A stretch of DNA of 22,290 bases, from positions 1-22,290 of IMG/VR virus record IMGVR_UViG_3300018428_003479, one strand, 5' to 3'. The notes beneath the pieces were generated by a model. It did no database searches. It saw nothing but the letters and a program-made list of their open reading frames with translations, and was not told where the DNA came from. Every line of letters begins with the position of its first letter. Within the stretch, counting starts at the first letter, position 1. The DNA is from a virus. Positions 1 through 20,457 of this stretch are shown piece by piece. The position numbers were made by a program, and so were the translations under genes.

Positions 1-1229
1 ATTATTTTGAAAAATTAGCAGATAAATGGAATACATCAGAAGAAGCAGCTAAAAAATCTTTGTGTGGAAATTGTGTTGCATTTGATATTTCTTCACAAAT
101 GAAAGAGTGTATGCCGGGAGAAGTCTCTGATGATAGCGGTCAGCTTGGCTACTGCTGGATGCATCATTTCAAGTGCCACAGCAAAAGGACTTGTGATACT
201 TGGGCTAAAGGTGGTCCAATTACAAAAGATAAAGTTTCTGACGATTGGGCTGAAAAATCTAAAGCAGAAGAAGTTGCGAGTTATGCGGATCACGCAGAGG
301 CTCTACAGAGGGGTAGACCGGGACCAAATGATCCTAGAAAAACTCCTGCGCCAAAAAAAGATCAGAAAAAAGGATCTAAGAAAAACAAGCCAGACAGTGC
401 AAAAGATGATAAGGGAAAAATTACATTCAGTAAATCCACTATCGAAAAATTAAGCAAGGCTGTAAGAGAGCATAACGCAAAAGGAAAAGGTCCAAAGGCA
501 ACTCTTGGTCAACTGAAAGCTGTTTACAGAAGGGGTGCTGGTGCTTTCTCAACCAGTCATGCACCAAAAATGTCTCGCGATGGATGGGCTATGGCAAGAG
601 TCAGAGCTTACTTGTATCTCTTGAGAAATGGCAGACCAAGTAATCCAAATTATAAGCAGGACAATGACTTGTTGCCATCATCTCACCCGCGATCTTCTAA
701 AGCATCTGCTGGAGCAGGCCGGATGGAAGACTATATTTTCATCTCAAAAGAAAAAGCTATGGAGATGGCTAAAAAGCTCGGAATGAAAGGTGTTCATAGC
801 TCTAAGACTGCGGATGGAAAAGTGTTCTATTTCCCAGGAGCTACAGAAAGAGAGTTTTTTGATTGGTATAGAAAAAACGATGGCGTAGATGCTGCTATGA
901 CAGAAAAGCAGAAAGAAGCTCTTGATAAAGATAAAGACGGCAAGATTACCAAAAAAGATTTTGAATTACTTCGTAAAAGTAAAGGTGCTGAGTATAAGGG
1001 CAGAAAAGTTACTTTAAATAAGCCGTTTAGGACTCCTGATGGACCTAAGAAAAGCGCTGTTTATACTAAAAACGAAAAAGGAAATGTTGTTCTTGTTAGA
1101 TTTGGAGATACAAACATGAAGATCAAGAAAAGTAATCCAGAAAGAAGAAAAAGTTTTAGAGCCAGACATAATTGTGATAATCCTGGCCCAAAATGGAAAG
1201 CACGATATTGGTCTTGTAGGGCATGGTAA
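1..1229 (+). CDS. Modular phage protein with Cys-rich, RGAGA-type, EF-hand and C-terminal WSC motifs (5' partial)
   Basis: The frame is open from the first complete codon at 3, so the start lies outside the window and the TTG at 60 is not needed. Domains in order: a Cys-rich segment (about 63-195) with a CGNC pair and further cysteines in GYC, FKC and RTCDTW, which could bind a metal or an iron-sulfur cluster; a low-complexity Lys/Pro linker; a domain at about 498-705 with LKAVYRRGAGAF, GWAMARV and DNDLLPSSHP, a pattern I associate with phage head-region proteins of unknown function; a textbook EF-hand loop at 924-959 (D at loop positions 1, 3, 5 and 12, G at 6); and a C-terminal block at 1158-1226 ending KARYWSCRAW. 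The role is probably virion or assembly related, but that rests on resemblance and position. The next gene starts 4 bases after the stop. Confidence 0.75.
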   Translation, partial: YFEKLADKWNTSEEAAKKSLCGNCVAFDISSQMKECMPGEVSDDSGQLGYCWMHHFKCHSKRTCDTWAKGGPITKDKVSDDWAEKSKAEEVASYADHAEALQRGRPGPNDPRKTPAPKKDQKKGSKKNKPDSAKDDKGKITFSKSTIEKLSKAVREHNAKGKGPKATLGQLKAVYRRGAGAFSTSHAPKMSRDGWAMARVRAYLYLLRNGRPSNPNYKQDNDLLPSSHPRSSKASAGAGRMEDYIFISKEKAMEMAKKLGMKGVHSSKTADGKVFYFPGATEREFFDWYRKNDGVDAAMTEKQKEALDKDKDGKITKKDFELLRKSKGAEYKGRKVTLNKPFRTPDGPKKSAVYTKNEKGNVVLVRFGDTNMKIKKSNPERRKSFRARHNCDNPGPKWKARYWSCRAW

Positions 1230-1233
1230 AATT

Positions 1234-2463
1234 ATGAAAAGAAGAAATTTTATTAAGTTAGGTGCTACAACATTAGCTTTTGGTAATGTAACGGCTACAT
1301 ATGCAGATGATAAGCAAAAAGACGATCCAGCAGTTTTGTTCTTATTTCTTAGTGGTGGTGCTTCTCATATTGAGACTTTTAATCCTATACCTTATGCTCC
1401 TGCTGATCGCAGAAGTGTAACAGGGGCAAGAAAAACAAATGTCGCTGGTATAGAACTAGGAGGATTGTTTGAAAATTTAGCTAGTAGAACTGACAAAATA
1501 GCTATACCTAGAGCATTCGGTCATAGAGATCAAAATCACGCATCTGCTGTTCATTGGGTAATCACCGGAGAGGCTAATTTTGGTGCTGGGACTAGTTCAA
1601 AATGGCCCAGCTATGGTAGTTGTATGGCAAAATATCATGGTCCAAATACAGACAATGGACTGCCAACATATATTAAAATGGGTGAAATCCAGCATGATGA
1701 TGCAGCTTGGCTAGGCGGTAAGTATATGGGCTTTGATGCTACTAGGGAAGGTAGAAAAGACCTGCAACTTCTTGGCAAGAGTGATGATTTTAGAAAAAGA
1801 TTATATGCATTAAATGTAATTGATAATGGATTTATTGGAAGAAACCAACAAATGTCAAAAGACTGGAGAGATTTGAGAGAGCAGTCTGTTGATATTATAT
1901 TAGGAAGTACCTCAAAGGCATTTAAAGTAGAAGAAGACAGTCATTATGACCGTTTTAAGGCTACAAGTTTTGGAACTGATTGTTTAACTGCGATCCGTCT
2001 ATTGGAAGCAGGTTCTAAATTTGTAACGCTTAATATGGGTGGCTGGGACATGCATCAAAATATAGGTGCTTCATTAGAAACTAGACAAAAAGAATTAGAT
2101 GCCTATCTTTGTAAAGTTATGGATTTATTAGAACATAGAGGTATGTACGAGCGTGTAATGCTTATCGTGACTTCTGAGTTTGGAAGAACTCCAAAAGTAA
2201 ATCAAAACCAAGGTAGAGATCATTTTGGAAAACTTGCACCACTAATGATTAGTTGTGGTAGTTACGAAATGGGTAGAACTATTGGTGCTTCAAATGGAAA
2301 TGCAGATGAGGCAGAAAGTGGTCGTTGTACACCAGAGGATTTAGCCTGGACAATATTTGACCATTTAGATATGGAAAAGAAAACAAGATGGACTGGCGTT
2401 GATGGTCGTCCGCATGATATAGTCAAGGAAGATTCTAAAAACATTTTAAAGGAGATTGTATGA
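1234..2463 (+). CDS. DUF1501 family secreted protein with twin-arginine signal
   Basis: 409 residues from ATG 1234; the longer frame from 1174 runs into the previous gene and would hide the signal peptide. The N-terminus (KRRNFIKLG, residues 2-10, then a hydrophobic stretch to about residue 24) is a twin-arginine export signal, so the product is probably exported folded. DUF1501 hallmarks follow: LFLSGGASHIETFNP (36-50), HASAVHWVITG (102-112), GGWDMHQN (269-276), SEFGRTPKVNQ (314-324) and GRDHFGKLAP (327-336). The length is normal and all blocks are present, so it looks functional. The family belongs to the alkaline phosphatase/sulfatase-like superfamily and is abundant in Planctomycetes; its reaction is not established. 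The stop overlaps the next start as ATGA. An AGGG at 1218-1221 is the only ribosome-binding candidate and is poorly spaced. Probably an accessory gene taken from the host, with AT content now matching the phage. Confidence 0.93.
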   Translation: MKRRNFIKLGATTLAFGNVTATYADDKQKDDPAVLFLFLSGGASHIETFNPIPYAPADRRSVTGARKTNVAGIELGGLFENLASRTDKIAIPRAFGHRDQNHASAVHWVITGEANFGAGTSSKWPSYGSCMAKYHGPNTDNGLPTYIKMGEIQHDDAAWLGGKYMGFDATREGRKDLQLLGKSDDFRKRLYALNVIDNGFIGRNQQMSKDWRDLREQSVDIILGSTSKAFKVEEDSHYDRFKATSFGTDCLTAIRLLEAGSKFVTLNMGGWDMHQNIGASLETRQKELDAYLCKVMDLLEHRGMYERVMLIVTSEFGRTPKVNQNQGRDHFGKLAPLMISCGSYEMGRTIGASNGNADEAESGRCTPEDLAWTIFDHLDMEKKTRWTGVDGRPHDIVKEDSKNILKEIV

Positions 2464-2750
2464 GAAATTTAATTATTGGTTTATTAGGCGTTTTATTATT
2501 TGCTGCTACAGCAGAGGCTCATTGGCCTTGGCAAAATCATCAACATCCCCATGACTACAGATATAATCCTCCCAGGGTTTATTATCAGCCTTATGTTGTT
2601 TGGTTGCCTCAAGGAACAGCTTTAAATGTTGGTCCTGTGTATACAGATCCATATAGAAGGCATGTTACAGTGGGAATTAATTACGGTTTTTATCACATTC
2701 CTCAAGTTCAAACATTTAATTTTTATAATGGTCAACAAAGCCCAAGATAA
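2460..2750 (+). CDS. Small secreted His/Tyr/Pro-rich protein
   Basis: 96 residues. Residues 1-20 form a classic Sec signal peptide (MRNLIIGLLGVLLFAATAEA) with a likely cut after AEA, before HWPW. The mature part is rich in His, Tyr, Pro and aromatics (HQHPHDYRYNPP, VYYQPYVVW), with no cysteine or transmembrane segment. The start codon overlaps the DUF1501 stop (ATGA at 2460-2463), so translation is probably coupled and both proteins are likely exported in step. I recognise no family. The composition suggests a periplasmic or surface protein that might bind metal through its N-terminal histidines; that is inference only. Confidence 0.8.
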   Translation: MRNLIIGLLGVLLFAATAEAHWPWQNHQHPHDYRYNPPRVYYQPYVVWLPQGTALNVGPVYTDPYRRHVTVGINYGFYHIPQVQTFNFYNGQQSPR

Positions 2751-2999: not shown

Positions 3000-3056
3000 A
3001 TGATTGAATTAGCGATAGCAGTTTTTATTGCATCTTTTTTATTAGGAAATAAATGA
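3000..3056 (+). CDS. 18-residue hydrophobic micro-ORF (leader or membrane peptide)
   Basis: The ORF encodes MIELAIAVFIASFLLGNK. It has a GGAG ribosome binding site (2991-2994) five bases before ATG 3000, directly after the terminator T run. Its stop overlaps the glycosyltransferase start as ATGA (3053-3056). Residues 2-16 are hydrophobic enough for one membrane helix. The glycosyltransferase has no other ribosome binding site, so this ORF probably delivers ribosomes to it by coupling; the peptide may also act in the membrane. No database family is known to me. Confidence 0.6.
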   Translation: MIELAIAVFIASFLLGNK

Positions 3057-4135
3057 ATAGATTAAATTTGAATGCCCCAATAAATAGTTTAGGATATGGT
3101 GTCGTAGGATACAATGTATGGAAAAGCTTTAATTCAGATCCAGATGTTGATGTAACATTATTTCCAATATCCAATCAGATTTCACCTCCATGTTTAATGA
3201 AAGATGGTGAAAAACTGTCATTGCAAAACTCAGTACAAATGCAAAACATTTTCGATCCTACGTTACCAACATTGAAAATATGGCATGAAAATCAATTGGC
3301 AGACAGAATTGGAAAAGGTAAGTTTGTTGCTTGGTCTTTTTTTGAAGTAAATAAATTTGATAATAGAAGAAGAAGTCATTTGCAATCTGCCGATGAAATT
3401 ATTGTATCATCAAAATGGGCTAAAGAAATAGTTAATAAATATGTAGGTTCTTATGTACATGTTGTTCCTTGTGGTGTTGATAGGAATATCTTCAATGAAC
3501 AATCAAATAAGCCAAATACTTCTAAATGTATTTTCTTTAATTGTGGCAAATGGGAAGTAAGAAAAGGTCATGATGTTTTATACAAGGCTTTTAAAGATGC
3601 TTTTCCAATGAATTATGATGTTGAGTTATGGATGATGACAGAAAATCAATTTCTAAATAAAGAAGAAAAAGGCTATTGGGAGTCTAGATATAAAGAAGAT
3701 AGAATTAAATTAATCCCGAGAGTCCAATGGCAAGAAGAATTAGCTAATATAATATCTAATGTTCATTGCGGTGTGTTTCCAGCAAGATCAGAGGGTTGGA
3801 ATTTAGAAATTTTAGAAATGATGGCAATGGGAAAACAAATAATTACAACGAATTATTCTGCTCATACTGAATTTTGTAACAATGAAAATTGTAATCTTAT
3901 AGATATAGAACAGGAAGAATCTATTTATGATGGAAAATGGTTTATAGGAGATAACGGAACATGGGCATCCTTAGAAGGAAATGCTTATGAGCAATTAGTT
4001 AATGCATTTAAAACAGAGTATAATTCTTGGAAAGACAACCCTTTTAAAGTAAATCAACATGGAATAGAAACTTCCAAAGAATTGTCTTGGAAAAATTCTA
4101 GCGATAAAGTTAAAAAAATAATTTTTGGAGAATAA
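3053..4135 (+). CDS. GT4-type (GT-B fold) glycosyltransferase
   Basis: 360 residues. The N-terminal half has the acceptor-side features of GT-B enzymes (NSLGYGVVGYNV near 11-22, ADEIIVSSKWAKE near 113-125, VVPCGVDRNIF at 137-147). The C-terminal nucleotide-sugar domain has a GKWEVRKGHDVL block (165-176) and the ExxxxxxxE motif, E247 to E255 (SEGWNLEILEMMAMG), diagnostic of GT4 retaining transferases. No membrane segment is evident, so it is likely cytoplasmic. The start overlaps the stop of the micro-ORF. In a phage such an enzyme could modify host surface glycans, virion proteins or modified DNA bases; the sequence does not show which. No DNA-base-modifying partner is visible in the window. 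Confidence 0.9.
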   Translation: MNRLNLNAPINSLGYGVVGYNVWKSFNSDPDVDVTLFPISNQISPPCLMKDGEKLSLQNSVQMQNIFDPTLPTLKIWHENQLADRIGKGKFVAWSFFEVNKFDNRRRSHLQSADEIIVSSKWAKEIVNKYVGSYVHVVPCGVDRNIFNEQSNKPNTSKCIFFNCGKWEVRKGHDVLYKAFKDAFPMNYDVELWMMTENQFLNKEEKGYWESRYKEDRIKLIPRVQWQEELANIISNVHCGVFPARSEGWNLEILEMMAMGKQIITTNYSAHTEFCNNENCNLIDIEQEESIYDGKWFIGDNGTWASLEGNAYEQLVNAFKTEYNSWKDNPFKVNQHGIETSKELSWKNSSDKVKKIIFGE

Positions 4136-4138
4136 TAT

Positions 4139-4693
4139 ATGAATCATCCAGATAATGACGCGAGACTAAAACAATTGAATGAAAGCATTAAAATGCTTAA
4201 TAAATTAAAAAGAATAGATAGTGGTGCTAATGAATTTTCTAGAAAAGTTAGGGTAAAACTTCTTTCAGAAGAAGCTAAAATGCCAACCAGATCAAATTTA
4301 TCTGATGCAGGATGGGATCTATATTCCACAGAAGATGTAGTTATTACTGGAGGTCAAAGAAAAATAGTTAAGACTGGAATATCGTTACAAATACCAGACG
4401 AATGGGTTGGTTTGATTTGGCCTAGATCTGGACTTTCTGTAAAAAAGGGTCTTGATGTACTAGCAGGAGTTGTTGACTCTGGGTATAGAGGCGAAATAAT
4501 GGTATGCCTATACAACACAAATATGCAATTAAAATTATTTGCTGATGATGACGATCCAATCGTGACAATAAAAAAAGGAGATAGGATAGGTCAAATTTTA
4601 TTTCAAAGAGTCCCAGACGTTCATTTAGTTGAGGTTGATTATCTTTCTGACAGCGATAGAGGTGAAAAAGGATTTGGGAGTTCTGGAAAATAA
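4139..4693 (+). CDS. dut: dUTP diphosphatase (trimeric dUTPase)
   Basis: 184 residues. Hydrolyses dUTP to dUMP and pyrophosphate, keeping uracil out of DNA and supplying the dTMP precursor. All five trimeric-dUTPase motifs are present: SDAGWDLYS (55-63), PRSGLSVKKG (95-104), GVVDSGYRGEI (110-120, with the catalytic Asp), GDRIGQILF (147-155) and RGEKGFGSSGK (174-184), the last being the P-loop-like tail that closes the active site. The first 35 or so residues are an extra charged, probably helical extension not found in most dUTPases. TTTTTGGAG lies 9 bases before the start. Its stop overlaps the GMP reductase start (TAATG), placing the two in one purine/pyrimidine pool module. Confidence 0.96.
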   Translation: MNHPDNDARLKQLNESIKMLNKLKRIDSGANEFSRKVRVKLLSEEAKMPTRSNLSDAGWDLYSTEDVVITGGQRKIVKTGISLQIPDEWVGLIWPRSGLSVKKGLDVLAGVVDSGYRGEIMVCLYNTNMQLKLFADDDDPIVTIKKGDRIGQILFQRVPDVHLVEVDYLSDSDRGEKGFGSSGK

Positions 4694-5802
4694 TGAAAAT
4701 TTCAAATGATGTAAAATTAGATTTTGATGATATCTTGTTGGTTCCTAGCAGAAGTCCTAATGCCTCTAGAAAAGATGTAAAACTCGATAGAACATATAAA
4801 TTTTTTCATTCAAACAAAGAATGGAATGGCTTGCCAATTATGGCGGCGAATATGGATACTACTGGAACTTTTGCAATGGGTTCCCAGTTGTTGAATTTTA
4901 ATGCAATAACCTGTTTGCATAAACATTATACTGCTGAAAAAATACTTTCTTTTTATGAATATTCTGATTGCTGTTCAAATGTTTGGATGAGTATAGGAAT
5001 GAAAAAAGAAGATATAATTAAAGTTCATGAAGTAACTTGTAAGCTGGGATGGTGTCCAAATATTTGCATTGATATTGCCAACGGATATACAGAAAAATTT
5101 GTTGAATGGTGTTCAGATGTAAGAAATTTATTTGACTATGGTCCTAAACCGATTATTATGGCTGGAAATGTTTGTACTCCAGAAATGGTTTCGGAATTAA
5201 TTCTACATGGAGGCGTTGATATTGTTAAAGTTGGAATTGGGCCGGGATCAGCCTGTACCACTAGACTAAAAACGGGTGTAGGATATCCTCAATTGTCTGC
5301 TATAATAGAGTGTAGTCATGCTGCTCATGGATTAAAGAGCGATGAAAAAAGGATGGGTTTGATATGTGCGGATGGAGGATGTAGGCTACCAGCAGATGTT
5401 TGCAAGGCTTTCGCGGCTAACGCTGACTTTGTTATGCTGGGAGGAATGCTGGCGGGAACAGACGAGTGTGAGGGCGAGTGGGAATACGCATTACGTGTAG
5501 AAGAAGAAGTCAAAGTTACAGGAGCTATGCGTACTGAAAAAGTTAAAAAGAACTTGCTCTTTTATGGCATGTCCTCAGAAAAAGCTCAAGACAAACATAA
5601 TGGTGGTATGGCTAATTATAAAGCAAGCGAGGGGAGGGTTAAAAAAATTGCATATAAAGGACCAGTTAAAAATATAATGAATGAAATATGTGGTGGACTT
5701 AGAAGTTGTTGCGCCTACCTTGGAGCAACATCGCTAAAAGATTTGTCAAAATGCTCTAAAGCAGTTATGGTAAATCGTACTCATTTTGATGGTTCAATTT
5801 AA
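4693..5802 (+). CDS. guaC: GMP reductase
   Basis: 369 residues. NADPH-dependent conversion of GMP to IMP plus ammonia. The TIM-barrel IMPDH/GMPR signature runs throughout: DFDDILLVPSRS (10-21), MAANMDTTGTFAM (50-62), CLHKHYT (74-80), GIGPGSACTTRLKTGVGYPQ (181-200) with catalytic Cys188 and Thr190, ADGGCRLPADVCKAF (226-240), MLGGMLAGTDE (248-258) and FYGMSSE (290-296). TRLKTGVGYPQLSA and the lack of CBS domains point to GMP reductase rather than IMP dehydrogenase. Residues 258-288 hold a longer charged loop than in enterobacterial GuaC. It follows dUTPase with a 1-base overlap and is followed immediately by an unknown gene. The likely role is to reopen the guanine pool toward IMP and dATP synthesis. 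GC content is visibly higher around 5370-5500. Confidence 0.94.
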   Translation: MKISNDVKLDFDDILLVPSRSPNASRKDVKLDRTYKFFHSNKEWNGLPIMAANMDTTGTFAMGSQLLNFNAITCLHKHYTAEKILSFYEYSDCCSNVWMSIGMKKEDIIKVHEVTCKLGWCPNICIDIANGYTEKFVEWCSDVRNLFDYGPKPIIMAGNVCTPEMVSELILHGGVDIVKVGIGPGSACTTRLKTGVGYPQLSAIIECSHAAHGLKSDEKRMGLICADGGCRLPADVCKAFAANADFVMLGGMLAGTDECEGEWEYALRVEEEVKVTGAMRTEKVKKNLLFYGMSSEKAQDKHNGGMANYKASEGRVKKIAYKGPVKNIMNEICGGLRSCCAYLGATSLKDLSKCSKAVMVNRTHFDGSI

Positions 5803-9491: not shown

Positions 9492-9529
9492 GACCCATTT
9501 CGCAAAAACGGAATGGGTCTTTAATTTTA
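9492..9529 (+). terminator. Intrinsic terminator/attenuator before the ribonucleotide reductase gene
   Basis: GACCCATTTCG (9492-9502) pairs with CGGAATGGGTC (9509-9519), 11 bp with one T-G wobble, around the loop CAAAAA. TTTAATTTTA follows. It ends 23 bases before the reductase start. An upstream CCCAT (9462-9466) could compete for ATGGG of the right arm, a weak hint of attenuation. Confidence 0.8.
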
Positions 9530-9552
9530 TGTGCAATAGGAGTAGGATTTTA

Positions 9553-12081
9553 ATGTCAAGATTTACAAATTCATTTTCAGAAGAAACGTGGTATCAAAAA
9601 TATAAATTTGGAAATGATAGCAGTGTTGAGGATACTTGGAAAAGAGTAGCAAAAGATTTAGCATCTGTTGAAGAAGATAAAGAAAAGTACGAAAAAAGAT
9701 TTTATGAAATATTAGAAGATTTTAAATTTGTTCCTGGCGGAAGAATTACAAGCAACGCTGGTACTGGATTAAAAGGAACGACTTATATTAACTGCTTTGT
9801 TGATGGATTTGAAGGGGCAGATCTGGATTCTATCGAAGGTATTTATTCTACCTTAACCAAACAAGCGCAAATTTTAAAAAGCGAAGGAGGCTATGGTTTT
9901 TGTGCAGATGTAATGCGTCCTTGTGGTTCGCACATTGGAGGTATTGCAAATCAATCTCCCGGTTCTGTAAAGTTCTTAGAACTCTGGGATAAATCATCTG
10001 AAATCATAACAGCAGGCTCTAGCAAAAAATCCAGAAAAGACCAGAAGAATTTCATTCGTAAAGGCGCTCAAATGGTAACTATGTCTTGTTGGCATCCAGA
10101 CATAGAAGAATATATTGAAGCAAAGAAAACTCCCGGTCGCCTATCTAAATTTAATATGTCTGTTTTATGCACAGATGATTTTATGGAAGCTGTTAAAAAC
10201 GACAAAGCATGGCATTTATGGTTTCCAAACTACGAGGATTATCCAAAGCTTTATAAGAAAGAATGGGATGGCGATCTTAAAAGATGGTGTGAAGTAGCAG
10301 AAGCTAGTGATGAAAGCGACAGATCTCCATGTATGCCGTACAAAACCTTTGATTCCGCAAGAGAGTTGTGGAATCTAATTATGGATAATACTTACAATAG
10401 AAATGAGCCAGGAGTTCTTTTTATTGACAATATGAACAAGATGAATAATCTACATTATTGTGAAAATATTAATGCTACAAACCCATGTGGTGAACAAGTA
10501 TTACCTATTGGTGGTGTTTGTTTGCTAGGGTCTGTAAATTTAGTACATTTTATTGATGCAGAAAATAAAGACTGGAAATATGATGAATTACAAACATGTA
10601 TTCATACTGCCGTAAGATTTATGGATAATGTTAATGATAAAACAAATGTACCTCTAAAATCCCAAAAGAAAAACCTAGTTGATAAAAGAAGAATAGGTCT
10701 TGGTGTTATGGGTTACGGGTCAGCATTATTGATGGCTAGAGTTAAGTACGGTAGTAAAAAAGCGTTAGAAATGACAGAAAATCTTATGAGGTTTTTTACA
10801 AATGAAGCGTATAAAGCTTCTGCATTTTTAGCTAAAGAAAAAGGAGCTTTCCAATTATTTGACAAAGAAAAATATCTTAGTGGAGAATTTGTTAAGAACT
10901 TAAATGTTGATACAATTGGACTAATAAAAAAATATGGAATAAGAAATTCACACGTTACTTCTATTCAGCCAACTGGAAATAGTTCTTGCTATGCAAATTT
11001 AGTTAGTGGGGGTCTTGAGCCGCTATTCATGCATGGATACTTTAGAACATCTATTCAACCATCAGTTCCAGATAATATGTGGTTGCCAATAAATATTAAT
11101 TGGGAAAATAAAAAATATGATGTGAAAGCACCATCTTTAGAAAATTGGGATGGAAAGTCAAAAGATTCAAATTGGAAATGGGTAAAAGAGGGCGACGAAA
11201 ACCTTTTGGCAACTGAGTTTGAGGGAAAGGTATGGAAATTTGATAGAACAAGAGGTCTTTTAAAAGAAGAATGGATAGAAGATTATGGTGTATCTTATTT
11301 AAGGGAGAATCAAAAATGGGTCGAAGATGCTAGTTGGGCATCATGTACTATGGATCTTGATGTTGATTCACATGTAAATACAATGTCAATATTTGCCAAA
11401 TGGGTTGATTCTGCTATTTCTAAAACAATCAATCTTCCAAATGATTATCCATATGAAGATTTTAAGCAAGTATACAATAAGGCTTGGCAAAAAGGAATAA
11501 AAGGGTTTACCACTTATAGAGCAGGAACAATGACTGCTGTTCTTTCTGCTAATTCTTCTATTGACAATAAAGAAGATAAACTTCCAGAAGAAAGACCTAA
11601 AGAATTGTCTTGTGATGTTTATCATATTAAAGTTAAAGGTGAAGAATACTTTGTACTGGTAGGACTTTGTGAGAATAAAGTATATGAAGTATTTGCTGGA
11701 AAAAATGGATTCATTGATAAAAAAGTAAAAGGCGGAACAATTATAAAGCTAGGTCGTCCAAAAGGTGTGTATAAAGCAATTTTAGAAGACGGTCTTGAGC
11801 TTTCTCCAATAAATCAAACTTGTAGTGAAGAAGAAGACGCTTTAACTAGAATGACTTCTACTGCACTCAGAAGTGGTGCTGATATTCAAATGATCGTTCA
11901 GCAATTAGAAAAAGTAAAAGGAGATATGAATTCTTTTGCAAAAAGTATGGCAAGGGCATTAAAAAAATATATACCAGACGGATCAGAAGAAGAAGGATAT
12001 TGCCCAGAATGTGAACAAGATTCACTAATTAGACAGGAAGGCTGTGTTACTTGTACAAAATGTGGTTGGTCTAAATGTTAA
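9553..12081 (+). CDS. nrdJ: Class II (adenosylcobalamin-dependent) ribonucleoside reductase
   Basis: 842 residues from ATG 9553; the ATG at 9529 lies in the terminator T tract and is rejected, while AGGAG (9538-9542) and AGGA (9544-9547) serve 9553. Reduces ribonucleotides to deoxyribonucleotides using a B12-generated thiyl radical, without oxygen or a small subunit. Visible: redox pair Cys81 (TYINCFV) and Cys323 (GGVCLLGSVNL); the radical loop NPCGE with Asn310, Cys312 and Glu314; and a C-terminal tail (817-842) with CPEC, CVTC and a terminal CGWSKC that re-reduces the active site. A NrdJ-type C-terminal beta domain lies near 620-700. No NrdB or NrdG gene is nearby, consistent with class II. 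It begins a unit that continues into the protease and membrane genes. The host must make or import cobalamin. Confidence 0.95.
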   Translation: MSRFTNSFSEETWYQKYKFGNDSSVEDTWKRVAKDLASVEEDKEKYEKRFYEILEDFKFVPGGRITSNAGTGLKGTTYINCFVDGFEGADLDSIEGIYSTLTKQAQILKSEGGYGFCADVMRPCGSHIGGIANQSPGSVKFLELWDKSSEIITAGSSKKSRKDQKNFIRKGAQMVTMSCWHPDIEEYIEAKKTPGRLSKFNMSVLCTDDFMEAVKNDKAWHLWFPNYEDYPKLYKKEWDGDLKRWCEVAEASDESDRSPCMPYKTFDSARELWNLIMDNTYNRNEPGVLFIDNMNKMNNLHYCENINATNPCGEQVLPIGGVCLLGSVNLVHFIDAENKDWKYDELQTCIHTAVRFMDNVNDKTNVPLKSQKKNLVDKRRIGLGVMGYGSALLMARVKYGSKKALEMTENLMRFFTNEAYKASAFLAKEKGAFQLFDKEKYLSGEFVKNLNVDTIGLIKKYGIRNSHVTSIQPTGNSSCYANLVSGGLEPLFMHGYFRTSIQPSVPDNMWLPININWENKKYDVKAPSLENWDGKSKDSNWKWVKEGDENLLATEFEGKVWKFDRTRGLLKEEWIEDYGVSYLRENQKWVEDASWASCTMDLDVDSHVNTMSIFAKWVDSAISKTINLPNDYPYEDFKQVYNKAWQKGIKGFTTYRAGTMTAVLSANSSIDNKEDKLPEERPKELSCDVYHIKVKGEEYFVLVGLCENKVYEVFAGKNGFIDKKVKGGTIIKLGRPKGVYKAILEDGLELSPINQTCSEEEDALTRMTSTALRSGADIQMIVQQLEKVKGDMNSFAKSMARALKKYIPDGSEEEGYCPECEQDSLIRQEGCVTCTKCGWSKC

Positions 12082-19005: not shown

Positions 19006-20457
19006 ATGATTTTGTCAGATCCTGCTGCGGAACGTGCAGTTCTAGCTGGCGTGTGTAAATATGGCACAGAAGCTTACTATGACGTAGCAGACATAATAAA
19101 TGAAAATACATTTACTGTTGATTCTAATTCTGTTATTTATTCATGTGTAAAAAGATTAATAGAGCAAGACGATACAAGAGTTATAGATGTTGCATCTGTT
19201 CTTTCGTCTGCTAAAGAAATAGGTCTTGATACATTCTTTACAAATAATAACGAGCTATCTCATTTAGGCGCTGTTTTAAAGTTTCCTGTTGCGTTTCAAA
19301 ATATAAGAAAGTTTGGCGCAAAAATAAGAAAGCTTCAAATAGCTAGAATGATGTATGATCAGCTTGAAGAAACTAAAGAAAAGTATCTTGATATTAAAGG
19401 TGATGAGCCTATCTCTCATATTCTTGGAATGGCAGAAGAATCAATCTTTGATTTCACTTCTCTGCTAAACGACCAAGACGATGCTCCAGAGCTTTTGTTC
19501 GGAGACTTAGACGAATATCTAATTGACAGGGCTGAGAATAGGGTAGATCAGATTGGAATCCCAACTGGTTTCAATAAATATGATTTTGCAATCGGTGGAG
19601 GTCTTAGAAAAGGGACTGTTAATGTTATTGGAGCTAGAACAAAGGTTGGTAAAAGTCTTATTGGATTAAACATGGGATTCGATATTGCTAAACGTGGAGT
19701 TCCTGTTTTATATCTTGATACTGAAATGACTAAAAAAGACCAGCAGAATAGAGGTGGTGCAATGTCATCATTCAATAATCATGCTAAATCTAGTATCAAT
19801 GAAATTGAAACAGGTAAATTTGCAGACAACCCATTTCAGAAAAATTCTATATTAGAATTAGCAAAAGAGTTAAAGAACATTCCCTTCTACCATAAAAATA
19901 TTGGAGGCAGGGCATTTGAAGATCAAGTCTCTATCATGAGAAGGTGGCTTGCAAAAACAGTTGGTTTGAATGCAGAAGGAAAAGCAAATGATTGTGTCAT
20001 TGTATACGATTATCTGAAACTTATGGAAGCTTCTGAGTTAGCTAAGACAGACCTAAAAGAATTTCAGCTTCTGGGGTTCATGATGACCTCGCTACATAAC
20101 TTTGCTTTAAGATATGAGATTCCTATCCTCTCTTTTATTCAATTGAATAGAGATGGTATTACAAAGGAATCTACAGACGCAGCAAGTGGCTCAGATAGGA
20201 TCATGTGGCTATGTTCTAATTTTACTATTTATAAAGAAAAGTCAGATGAGGAAATAGCTCAAGATGGAATATCTAACGGTAATAGAAAACTTGTTCCTAT
20301 TATTTCTAGACATGGAGAAGGCTTGTCTGGAGGTGACTACATTAACGTAATGATGCAAGGAGCTTACGCTAAATTAATAGAAGGTCCAACTGCACAAGAA
20401 TTAGCCAACAGTAGAATCGAAGACGAAGTAAACGATGAAGAAGATATCGCATTTTAA
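19006..20457 (+). CDS. dnaB: DnaB-like replicative helicase
   Basis: 483 residues. The N-terminal domain (1-150) has the DnaB opening (LSDPAAERAVLAGVCKYG). The RecA-type motor follows: Walker A GARTKVGKS (209-217), catalytic Glu240 in YLDTEM, Walker B VIVYDYLKL with Asp335, and later IPILSFIQLNRDG and ASGSDRIMWLCSNF. It uses ATP to unwind the fork 5'-3' as a hexamer. The acidic tail (EDEVNDEEDIAF) overlaps the primase start by 23 bases, matching the usual phage helicase-primase pairing. Residues 240-262 have a phage-type polar insert. Complete, with all catalytic residues. Confidence 0.95.
   Translation: MILSDPAAERAVLAGVCKYGTEAYYDVADIINENTFTVDSNSVIYSCVKRLIEQDDTRVIDVASVLSSAKEIGLDTFFTNNNELSHLGAVLKFPVAFQNIRKFGAKIRKLQIARMMYDQLEETKEKYLDIKGDEPISHILGMAEESIFDFTSLLNDQDDAPELLFGDLDEYLIDRAENRVDQIGIPTGFNKYDFAIGGGLRKGTVNVIGARTKVGKSLIGLNMGFDIAKRGVPVLYLDTEMTKKDQQNRGGAMSSFNNHAKSSINEIETGKFADNPFQKNSILELAKELKNIPFYHKNIGGRAFEDQVSIMRRWLAKTVGLNAEGKANDCVIVYDYLKLMEASELAKTDLKEFQLLGFMMTSLHNFALRYEIPILSFIQLNRDGITKESTDAASGSDRIMWLCSNFTIYKEKSDEEIAQDGISNGNRKLVPIISRHGEGLSGGDYINVMMQGAYAKLIEGPTAQELANSRIEDEVNDEEDIAF

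Follow-up and report, generated by a model that had tools for sequence, protein, structure and literature searches.

The window, by which we mean the whole stretch of DNA that was analysed, is a single IMG/VR virus record of 22,290 bases whose main genes lie on the plus strand and include those for DnaB, primase, a UvsX-like recombinase, ribonucleotide reductase (RNR), dUTPase, ClpP and a dNMP kinase. At 1234..2463 (+) an open reading frame with an ATG start and zero internal stops encodes a DUF1501 protein of 409 amino acids, assigned from Pfam and from a predicted model with the alkaline-phosphatase-superfamily fold, and called phage type I below. The protein matches Pfam PF07394 with an E-value of 8.4e-56 and 190.2 bits (gathering cut-off 27), covering profile positions 3-387 of 390. 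A longer form from a GTG at 1174 is possible; the relatives nonetheless align from MKRR, the first residues here being MKRRNFIKLG and the start of the protein MKRRNFIKLGATTLAFGNVTATYADD. Residues G41, G42, H45, H102, D272, H274, F316, G317, R318, R328 and H330 are kept in all 18 phage and all 44 cellular rows compared, and in a 95-row set with all phage types H102, D272, H274, (D/E)315, R318, R328 and H330 are kept in every ungapped row, H45 not being universal across the family. The first-pass annotation of this DNA had described an intact DUF1501 gene with its conserved blocks, and the profile score, the near full coverage and the retention of the shared columns confirm it. A PHROG search with this protein returned zero families, and tblastn against 50,697 GenBank phages zero records at E <= 1e-3.

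The N-terminus encoded by 1234..1305 (+), MKRRNFIKLGATTLAFGNVTATYA, is of the twin-arginine type by motif reading, as MKRRNFIKLGATTLAFGNVTATYA-DD combines an RR motif, a hydrophobic stretch and an AxA-type end. R3, R4 and F6 do not vary among the 24 full-length phage copies, an RR N-terminus is present in all 37 phage rows of the tree alignment, whatever their type, and 88 of 90 phage DUF1501 ORFs have an RR start, the two exceptions (L300 and L309) missing their 5' part. An NCBIfam search with the window protein reported no family and no match to the Tat model TIGR01409; the same model matches a neighbour protein at another of the loci (L019:7579-8001; 18.3 bits, cut-off 16.7). The twin-arginine signal claimed earlier is thus present as a motif, from which we infer that the protein would be exported by the Tat route. 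PMC5122149 reports a twin-arginine motif for a DUF1501 protein next to bacterial chitin synthases.

The upstream neighbour (3..1229, +), whose 5' end lies off the contig, ends in a cysteine-containing ARYWSC tail and matches phrog_7595 (E 1.6e-13). Neighbours were counted across 40 DUF1501 loci, and all such counts are lower bounds, many loci being cut short and some being near copies. Relatives of the upstream neighbour occur in 24 of the 40; a group 1 glycosyltransferase (3053..4135, +; Pfam PF13692/PF00534, phrog_2170), the next conserved downstream gene in the phage clade of the window, in 14; a GMP reductase (4693..5802, +; NCBIfam NF003470, 427.7 bits, equivalog cut-off 397) in 23; a nearby PAP2-type phosphatase in 11; and a second RR-type protein and a thioredoxin lipoprotein in seven each. 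Two gene orders recur, with relatives of the upstream neighbour in both: SSB - upstream protein - DUF1501 - glycosyltransferase - dUTPase - GMP reductase, and DnaB - primase - kinase - exonuclease - DUF1501 - (PAP2) - upstream protein - DnaE. The relative of the upstream neighbour on a 126-kb contig discussed below (G001) has weak EF-hand/dockerin matches.

A gene for a 96-aa protein with a Sec-type N-terminus by motif reading (2460..2750, +) begins within the end of the DUF1501 gene, the two sharing an ATGA. Proteins of this kind, of 96-101 aa, are encoded in 14 of the 40 loci, some of them truncated, and a 4-nt overlap with the end of DUF1501 is seen in 10 of the 13 loci where this gene comes next, a count for which the stops of the 408-aa DUF1501 copies (e.g. 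L006) were placed 3 nt short; on the L006 contig itself (L227), with its 408-aa copy, the 4-nt overlap is present. The ATGA arrangement suggests that the two genes are translationally coupled. A profile of the small protein (A4) finds matches in 10 of 199 planctomycete genomes at E <= 0.01, nine at 6e-5 or better, and zero in 12 Verrucomicrobiota genomes in a search without a positive control. Of the eight planctomycete matches that were read, two lie inside secretins (L210 and L215; PF00263) and six are C-terminal parts of proteins of ~490-570 aa; hhalign of the partner against planctomycete segments, targets found with the same profile, gives a probability of 97.6 and an E-value of 3e-12. 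The coupling and the resemblance to a segment of planctomycete secretins would be expected if DUF1501 and its partner acted together on the secretin or pilus apparatus of the host, blocking superinfection that depends on pili or secretins. We regard such interference as improbable, as the partner is confined to those 14 loci and is truncated in some, six of the eight planctomycete matches read belong to other proteins than secretins, and the predicted model of the partner is poor (pLDDT 46).

A scan of IMG/VR with the window protein returned 35 further loci at 68-99% identity, and a profile scan added L117 (53%), L118 (57%) and L119 (a short piece); near-copy loci (L002/L003, L016/L017 and L015/L034) are included in the counts. 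The 24 full-length copies, that of the window among them, have a mean column identity of 88%, and with pairwise dN/dS values of 0.02-0.08 (eight pairs scored of nine tried) the phage DUF1501 is evidently under strong purifying selection. Since there are 35 further loci, the window gene is no assembly accident. Gene content and order in L002, L003 and L037 agree with those of the window, apart from two additional small genes missing from it, and the misassembled bacterial contig that the first-pass annotation had named as the finding that would speak against it did not appear. With gene and neighbours common to many contigs and a phage-like GC3, misassembly or a stray bacterial contig is scarcely credible as an explanation.

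The GC content of the DUF1501 gene is 0.374 against 0.326 for the window, and its GC3 of 0.215 lies inside the range of 0.14-0.30 covered by the other window genes; the DNA of the nearest planctomycete relatives has a GC content of 0.57-0.62, with GC3 values of 0.79 (L165) and 0.69 (L166). The earlier statement that the base composition resembles the phage holds because of this agreement in GC3 and the far higher values of the planctomycete kin. The placement among phage genes is likewise borne out, by the DnaB, primase, UvsX, RNR and dNMP kinase genes of the window and by G001, a contig partly syntenic with it that encodes a terminase large subunit (E 1.1e-17); these are therefore tailed phages. 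The closest tblastn matches among GenBank phages reach ~34% identity for a piece of the G001 DNA polymerase and ~30% for the window DnaB, and by this comparison the GenBank collection holds no close phage to the window/G001 group. The RNR gene has been exchanged between these otherwise syntenic phages (window 9529-12081; L121:12189-14417 in G001): the RNR of G001 shares 89% identity with its G002 counterpart and 24% with that of the window, while for DnaB and UvsX the identity between G001 and the window is 79% and 88%. The group also encodes giant proteins of 2818 and 3303 aa (L123:3083-11539 and G001 73129-83040, minus strand), the first of which had zero Pfam matches at E <= 0.01.

As a marker of phage kinship we used DnaB (19006..20457, +; phrog_19), which was found in 15 of 21 records. 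Its identity to the window protein is bimodal, at 79-99% in six records (G003, G008, G005, G001, G323 and the MAG G013) and 42-47% in nine (G011, G321, G004, G326, G325, G009, G002, G010 and G327), a split with which the DnaB tree agrees. The window DUF1501 is 95% identical to that of its close kin L002 and L003, 77-79% to members of its own DnaB group (L012, L015, L022 and L034) and 74-79% to members of the other (L005, L007, L009, L014, L016, L019, L020 and L023). Constraining the DUF1501 rows by gene order was rejected (AU test, p 1.6e-60; for the L015 type alone, p 0.022), the groups compared in the AU tests (gene order, DnaB kinship and phage origin) having been named after earlier trees had been seen. 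Because DUF1501 ignores the DnaB split and the gene-order grouping is rejected, the gene must have passed between phage lineages, moving between clades whose DnaB is 42-47% identical. Mean distances are 0.20-0.22 for DUF1501 against 0.40 for DnaB, 0.76 for primase and 0.58 for UvsX, and DUF1501 is more conserved than the dNMP kinase too. Its distances correlate weakly with those of DnaB, primase, exonuclease, UvsX and the upstream gene (rank correlation 0.16-0.35) and at 0.50 with those of the dNMP kinase and GMP reductase; the value for DnaB against primase is 0.73.

Cellular relatives were sought by profile in 294 planctomycete genomes (at most six candidates scored per genome), three of which have a near full-length relative at 282-295 bits, one of these, G014, being the centre of the search; the next best scored 155. 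The best score among 387 Verrucomicrobiota genomes (at most four candidates scored per genome) was 144 bits. These searches, which covered two phyla, are less biased than a pattern scan of genome contigs that used GGASHIET and FGHRDQNH, whose matches lean to that motif because of the patterns chosen. In a careful tree of 82 rows, with Alphaproteobacteria and Thermus as the outgroup, the phage copies form one clade (100/100) nested in a 56-row clade (100/100), the other rows of which are planctomycete and in part verrucomicrobial, with two rows from MAGs titled Actinomycetota; outside it lie plasmid copies of Gammaproteobacteria, Bacteroidota and one planctomycete. The rows are those of an 84-row set, whose tree puts the window copy in the same phage clade, minus L151 and L163 (wrong frames), L114 (long branch), L150, L154, L049, L009 and L013, plus six plasmid rows. 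The tree proposed in the first-pass annotation thus recovers viral homologues with common neighbours nested among PVC, mainly planctomycete, proteins, and the closest relatives outside Planctomycetes that would have spoken against its reading did not appear in the pattern scan or in the two phyla searched by profile (best 295 bits in Planctomycetota against 144 in Verrucomicrobiota). The trees show the window DUF1501 nested among planctomycete proteins and mark it as an apparently cell-derived auxiliary gene. The description of the family as planctomycete-associated stands for the nearest kin but not as a restriction, since plasmid genes of Gammaproteobacteria, Alphaproteobacteria, Bacteroidota and Thermus also bear the DUF1501 annotation. 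One 3.5-Mb planctomycete genome has 27 DUF1501 matches, some of them fragments.

The nearest planctomycete proteins (G281/L145, G231/L146, L039 and L040) match the phage copies over their full length at 36-37% identity and share the same invariant columns; the phage copies differ in their own long stem (1.16 changes per column), phage GC3 and phage neighbours. The same DUF1501 domain occurs in the bacterial gene pairs DUF1501-DUF1800 and DUF1501-DUF1549/DUF1553, and cellular DUF1501 genes adjoin DUF1549/DUF1553 or DUF1800 genes in five of six plasmid regions inspected; PMC5122149 likewise gives an association of DUF1501 with DUF1800 in bacteria. A phage copy might on these grounds replace its host counterpart, upholding an envelope or redox role that DUF1501 has alongside PSD1/DUF1549 cytochrome-type proteins. 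Unlike the bacterial pairs, however, none of the 11 phage records searched, which may be fragments, contains PSD1 (DUF1553). The relatives in G281, on a 227-kb contig, and in G231, on a 1.17-Mb contig some 6 kb from its end, resemble the phage copies in this respect, as among the matches listed there is no PSD1 on the G281 contig or within 45 kb in G231, with at least 70 and at least 57 PSD1 matches genome-wide in the same two genomes. Replacement of a host function is accordingly a reading that we give little weight, about as little as secretin interference.

The exonuclease gene upstream of DUF1501 served as the anchor for a survey of further loci, and its figures describe near relatives because the best 80 of 483 were used. 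DUF1501 lies downstream of the exonuclease in 49 of these best 80 of 483 (25 single, 20 double and 4 triple, pieces cut by contig ends being counted). The remaining 31 comprise 16 with less than 1.5 kb downstream of the exonuclease and 15 with at least 1.5 kb, and 13 of the 15 have a gene for a 283-300-aa protein directly after the exonuclease; the five of these proteins whose sequences were read resemble one another, and the one scanned (L267) is a family 2 glycosyltransferase (E 1.1e-7). Two or three DUF1501 genes are present in 24 of the best 80 of 483, and in 15 of these 24 loci adjacent copies share 1 or 4 nt. By sequence the phage proteins fall into types I (the window), I-b (~45% identical to it), II, III, IV, V and VI, to which a scan with the glycosyltransferase added type VII; one representative of each of the seven from I-b to VII scores above the Pfam cut-off, at 208.9-380 bits. 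The triple loci are L240, L256, L257 and L266, where the sequences indicate types IV, VI and V, and the first two copies of L240, L256 and L266 fall in different phage clades of a 95-row tree.

That careful tree, obtained from 121 rows by removing 23 row prefixes (for the most part near copies among the cellular rows, or long branches) plus three phage rows that were near copies, needs five changes between phage and cell labels, in 200 of 200 bootstrap trees and as forced by well-supported branches, and a single phage clade is rejected (AU test, p 8.7e-5). A quick tree of the 121 rows also needs five changes, at least four of them forced; the cellular rows of the trees are a sample. On the cellular side, the sister or near-sister rows of the other phage types have a GC content of 47-62% and lie on contigs of 8.3 Mb (L409), 154 kb (L395), 210 kb (L396), 36 kb (L411) and 4.2 kb (L402). 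The five changes are not five acquisitions, since the tree does not separate a gain from a return from phage to cell, as with the cellular L396, which sits between two phage types. The changes of label and the rejection of one phage clade together indicate that DUF1501 appears to have crossed between Planctomycetes and phages repeatedly, with no fixed number of acquisitions. In being cell-derived, kept and spread among phages the gene resembles other auxiliary genes that phages have taken from their hosts, and it is unlike the usual ones in that up to three members of one exported-looking family stand at one locus. The earlier reading as an auxiliary gene is supported; type I is one of several DUF1501 types, which stand in tandem in related phages, and it also moves from phage to phage.

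The host is likely to be a planctomycete, a reading based on the trees, on the start of a dockerin-type gene and on the planctomycete matches of the 96-aa partner. The dockerin-type gene lies three places upstream of DUF1501 in two records (L011:5206-5643 and L012:5867-6304), followed by a LamG gene, and the N-terminus of its product is Planc_extracel-like at 19.0 bits (curated cut-off 25.5; E 4.5e-5 and 1.1e-4 in the two records). In L013, a third contig with this gene, the start is missing and zero Planc_extracel signal is found; 5 of 14 control genomes likewise give matches, below the cut-off. A regular expression for the motif gave three hits (on two distinct contigs) in 3147 phage ORFs against a mean of 0.72 and a maximum of 3 in shuffled sequences, and was dropped as a host clue because it does not rise above the shuffles, the profile match being kept as a weak one. 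The L011 dockerin-type protein had zero matches in 149 planctomycete genomes in a search without a positive control. When 20,000 window bases were compared with 392 planctomycete genomes, matches at E <= 1 occurred in 179 (best 52.7 bits over 41 bases), and none was recognised as a CRISPR spacer, the flanks being unread; as these matches are short and scattered, a CRISPR-type link to the host was not accepted. A Lokiarchaeota MAG, Hel_238_bin13 (G013; C70, C197, C398 and C400; L037 and L038), holds contigs of these phages, with two DUF1501 genes at 92 and 80% and two DnaB genes at 97-98% identity to those of the window. We probably see here co-binned phage DNA, and Lokiarchaeota were not accepted as the host.

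The predicted model of the window protein, made from a 62-row alignment, has a mean pLDDT of 86.9. Its VIA-align comparison with the NPP-type chain 5gz5_A gives a Z of 20.7 (254 aligned, r.m.s.d. 3.4), and the best Foldseek match is a carrageenan sulfatase (E 2.9e-7, TM 0.44), the TM-scores of the listed PDB matches being low at 0.30-0.45 by query length. On this model the fold is that of the alkaline-phosphatase superfamily, which the phage DUF1501 shares with the S1 sulfatases, NPP/ENPP enzymes and LtaS. The metal-binding DHG of sulfatases, NPP enzymes and alkaline phosphatases is replaced by (D/E)FG in DUF1501: weak and short profile alignments to sulfatases pair the two, and F316 is present in 62 of 62 rows. 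A profile comparison with planctomycete NPP proteins aligns one short stretch (probability 8.9), where (D/E)FG is paired with an NPP-type EYA. Counted by the spacing of the nucleophile motif, which ends in TG, the invariant H102 would stand at the place of the Thr/Ser/Cys nucleophile, 10 residues before the G. Because DHG reads D/E-F-G, neither a phosphatase nor a sulfatase reaction can be taken for granted. We read the family as one in which a familiar fold carries a remodelled active site. The top viral fold match (E 1.9e-8) is A0A6J5M742 in BFVD, entitled 'DUF1501 domain-containing protein [uncultured Caudovirales phage]', with 12% identity to the window protein over the fold alignment, and a DUF1501 protein in a phage is thus already on record.

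Our preferred explanation, which we put forward tentatively and a little short of even confidence, is that the phage DUF1501 proteins are Tat-exported hydrolases that edit the envelope of a planctomycete host during infection. The protein would be made together with the replication genes, fold around its metal in the cytoplasm, leave through the Tat pore of the host and hydrolyse a phosphate or sulfate ester on a polymer of the host envelope. The altered surface might then no longer be bound by sibling phages or freshly released virions; alternatively, the envelope could be readied for release. Different DUF1501 types may serve different surface polymers, which would explain the stacking and swapping. 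Action at the envelope is suggested by the RR signals, the exported-looking partners, the location among replication genes and the glycosyltransferase-type gene that fills the slot in most loci with no DUF1501. Editing is supported by the fold of sulfatases, NPP phosphodiesterases and LtaS-type enzymes, by stacking in 24 of the best 80 of 483, by the low dN/dS and by a conservation better than that of DnaB, primase or UvsX, as well as by the planctomycete kinship in the trees and the dockerin-type gene of L011/L012. Against it we count (D/E)FG in place of DHG, with which the reaction may not be ester hydrolysis, the low TM-scores, the failure to match the NCBIfam Tat model, the sub-cut-off Planc_extracel score, the lack of a recognised spacer, the regular expression at chance and the contigs in the Lokiarchaeota MAG.

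The main rivals to envelope editing are secretin interference and the scavenging of phosphate. Cyanophage alkaline phosphatases offer a parallel for the latter, in which an exported enzyme would free phosphate (or sulfate) from periplasmic or surface esters for phage DNA synthesis. A phosphatase-type fold, the PAP2-type phosphatase gene in 11 of 40 loci and neighbours in nucleotide supply (RNR, dUTPase and GMP reductase) are consistent with scavenging; the altered active-site motif is not, and two or three types per phage fit different substrates better than one nutrient, so that we think it unlikely. The LamG/ConA-like genes that directly precede DUF1501 in L015/L034 are related to a virion protein family and bring to mind an enzyme borne on the tail or particle that acts as a depolymerase at entry. 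An RR-type signal in each copy with an intact 5' end and the position of the gene amid replication genes, with the terminase gene ~90 kb away on the 126-kb contig, make a virion enzyme very improbable. A fuller form of envelope editing, in which an exchangeable array of Tat-exported DUF1501 hydrolases from different planctomycete lineages is stacked and swapped to rewrite the envelope against competing phages, seems to us possible, if doubtful. Such a surface-conversion array would, if true, give DUF1501 its first functional setting and provide a sequence marker for planctomycete phages.

PMC4452313 described DUF1501 in 2015 as lacking any characterization. The open-licence literature in PubMed Central, a collection that leaves most subscription papers outside, gave in the excerpts available no account of phage DUF1501 arrays or of repeated exchange with Planctomycetes, and no description of DUF1501 in planctomycete phages was found in the available parts of PMC5418858, PMC5122149, PMC4452313, PMC4982196, PMC2754498 and PMC10945688. 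The first of these contains a 61-aa Pseudomonas phage protein with a weak DUF1501 hit; PMC10945688 presents a cultured planctomycete strain with a phage, and the term DUF is absent from its main text. DUF1501 is unmentioned in the main text of PMC5615132. New here is the presence of DUF1501 downstream of a related exonuclease gene (49 of the best 80 of 483), stacked two or three deep in 24 of these. In a large uncultured phage group, then, each of these loci has between one and three intact DUF1501 genes whose products look like exported enzymes, which points to its host and to a role at the host surface. To our knowledge, few phages of Planctomycetes have been described. If the link to the host is true, DUF1501 arrays would identify phages across a wide group as infecting planctomycetes and so assign a host where culture has failed to do so. 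The phage copies are compact, under strong selection and, in the records searched, free of a PSD1 partner, which makes them convenient for work on the DUF1501 reaction. That one phage group has recruited the same exported-looking family repeatedly amounts to a natural experiment on what phages need at the planctomycete surface. At two further loci (L292:2334-3317 and L294:2368-3351) a secreted-looking trypsin-type protease gene lies immediately ahead of the DUF1501 gene, and the L292 product, the one scanned, matches Pfam Trypsin_2 (E 1.3e-13).
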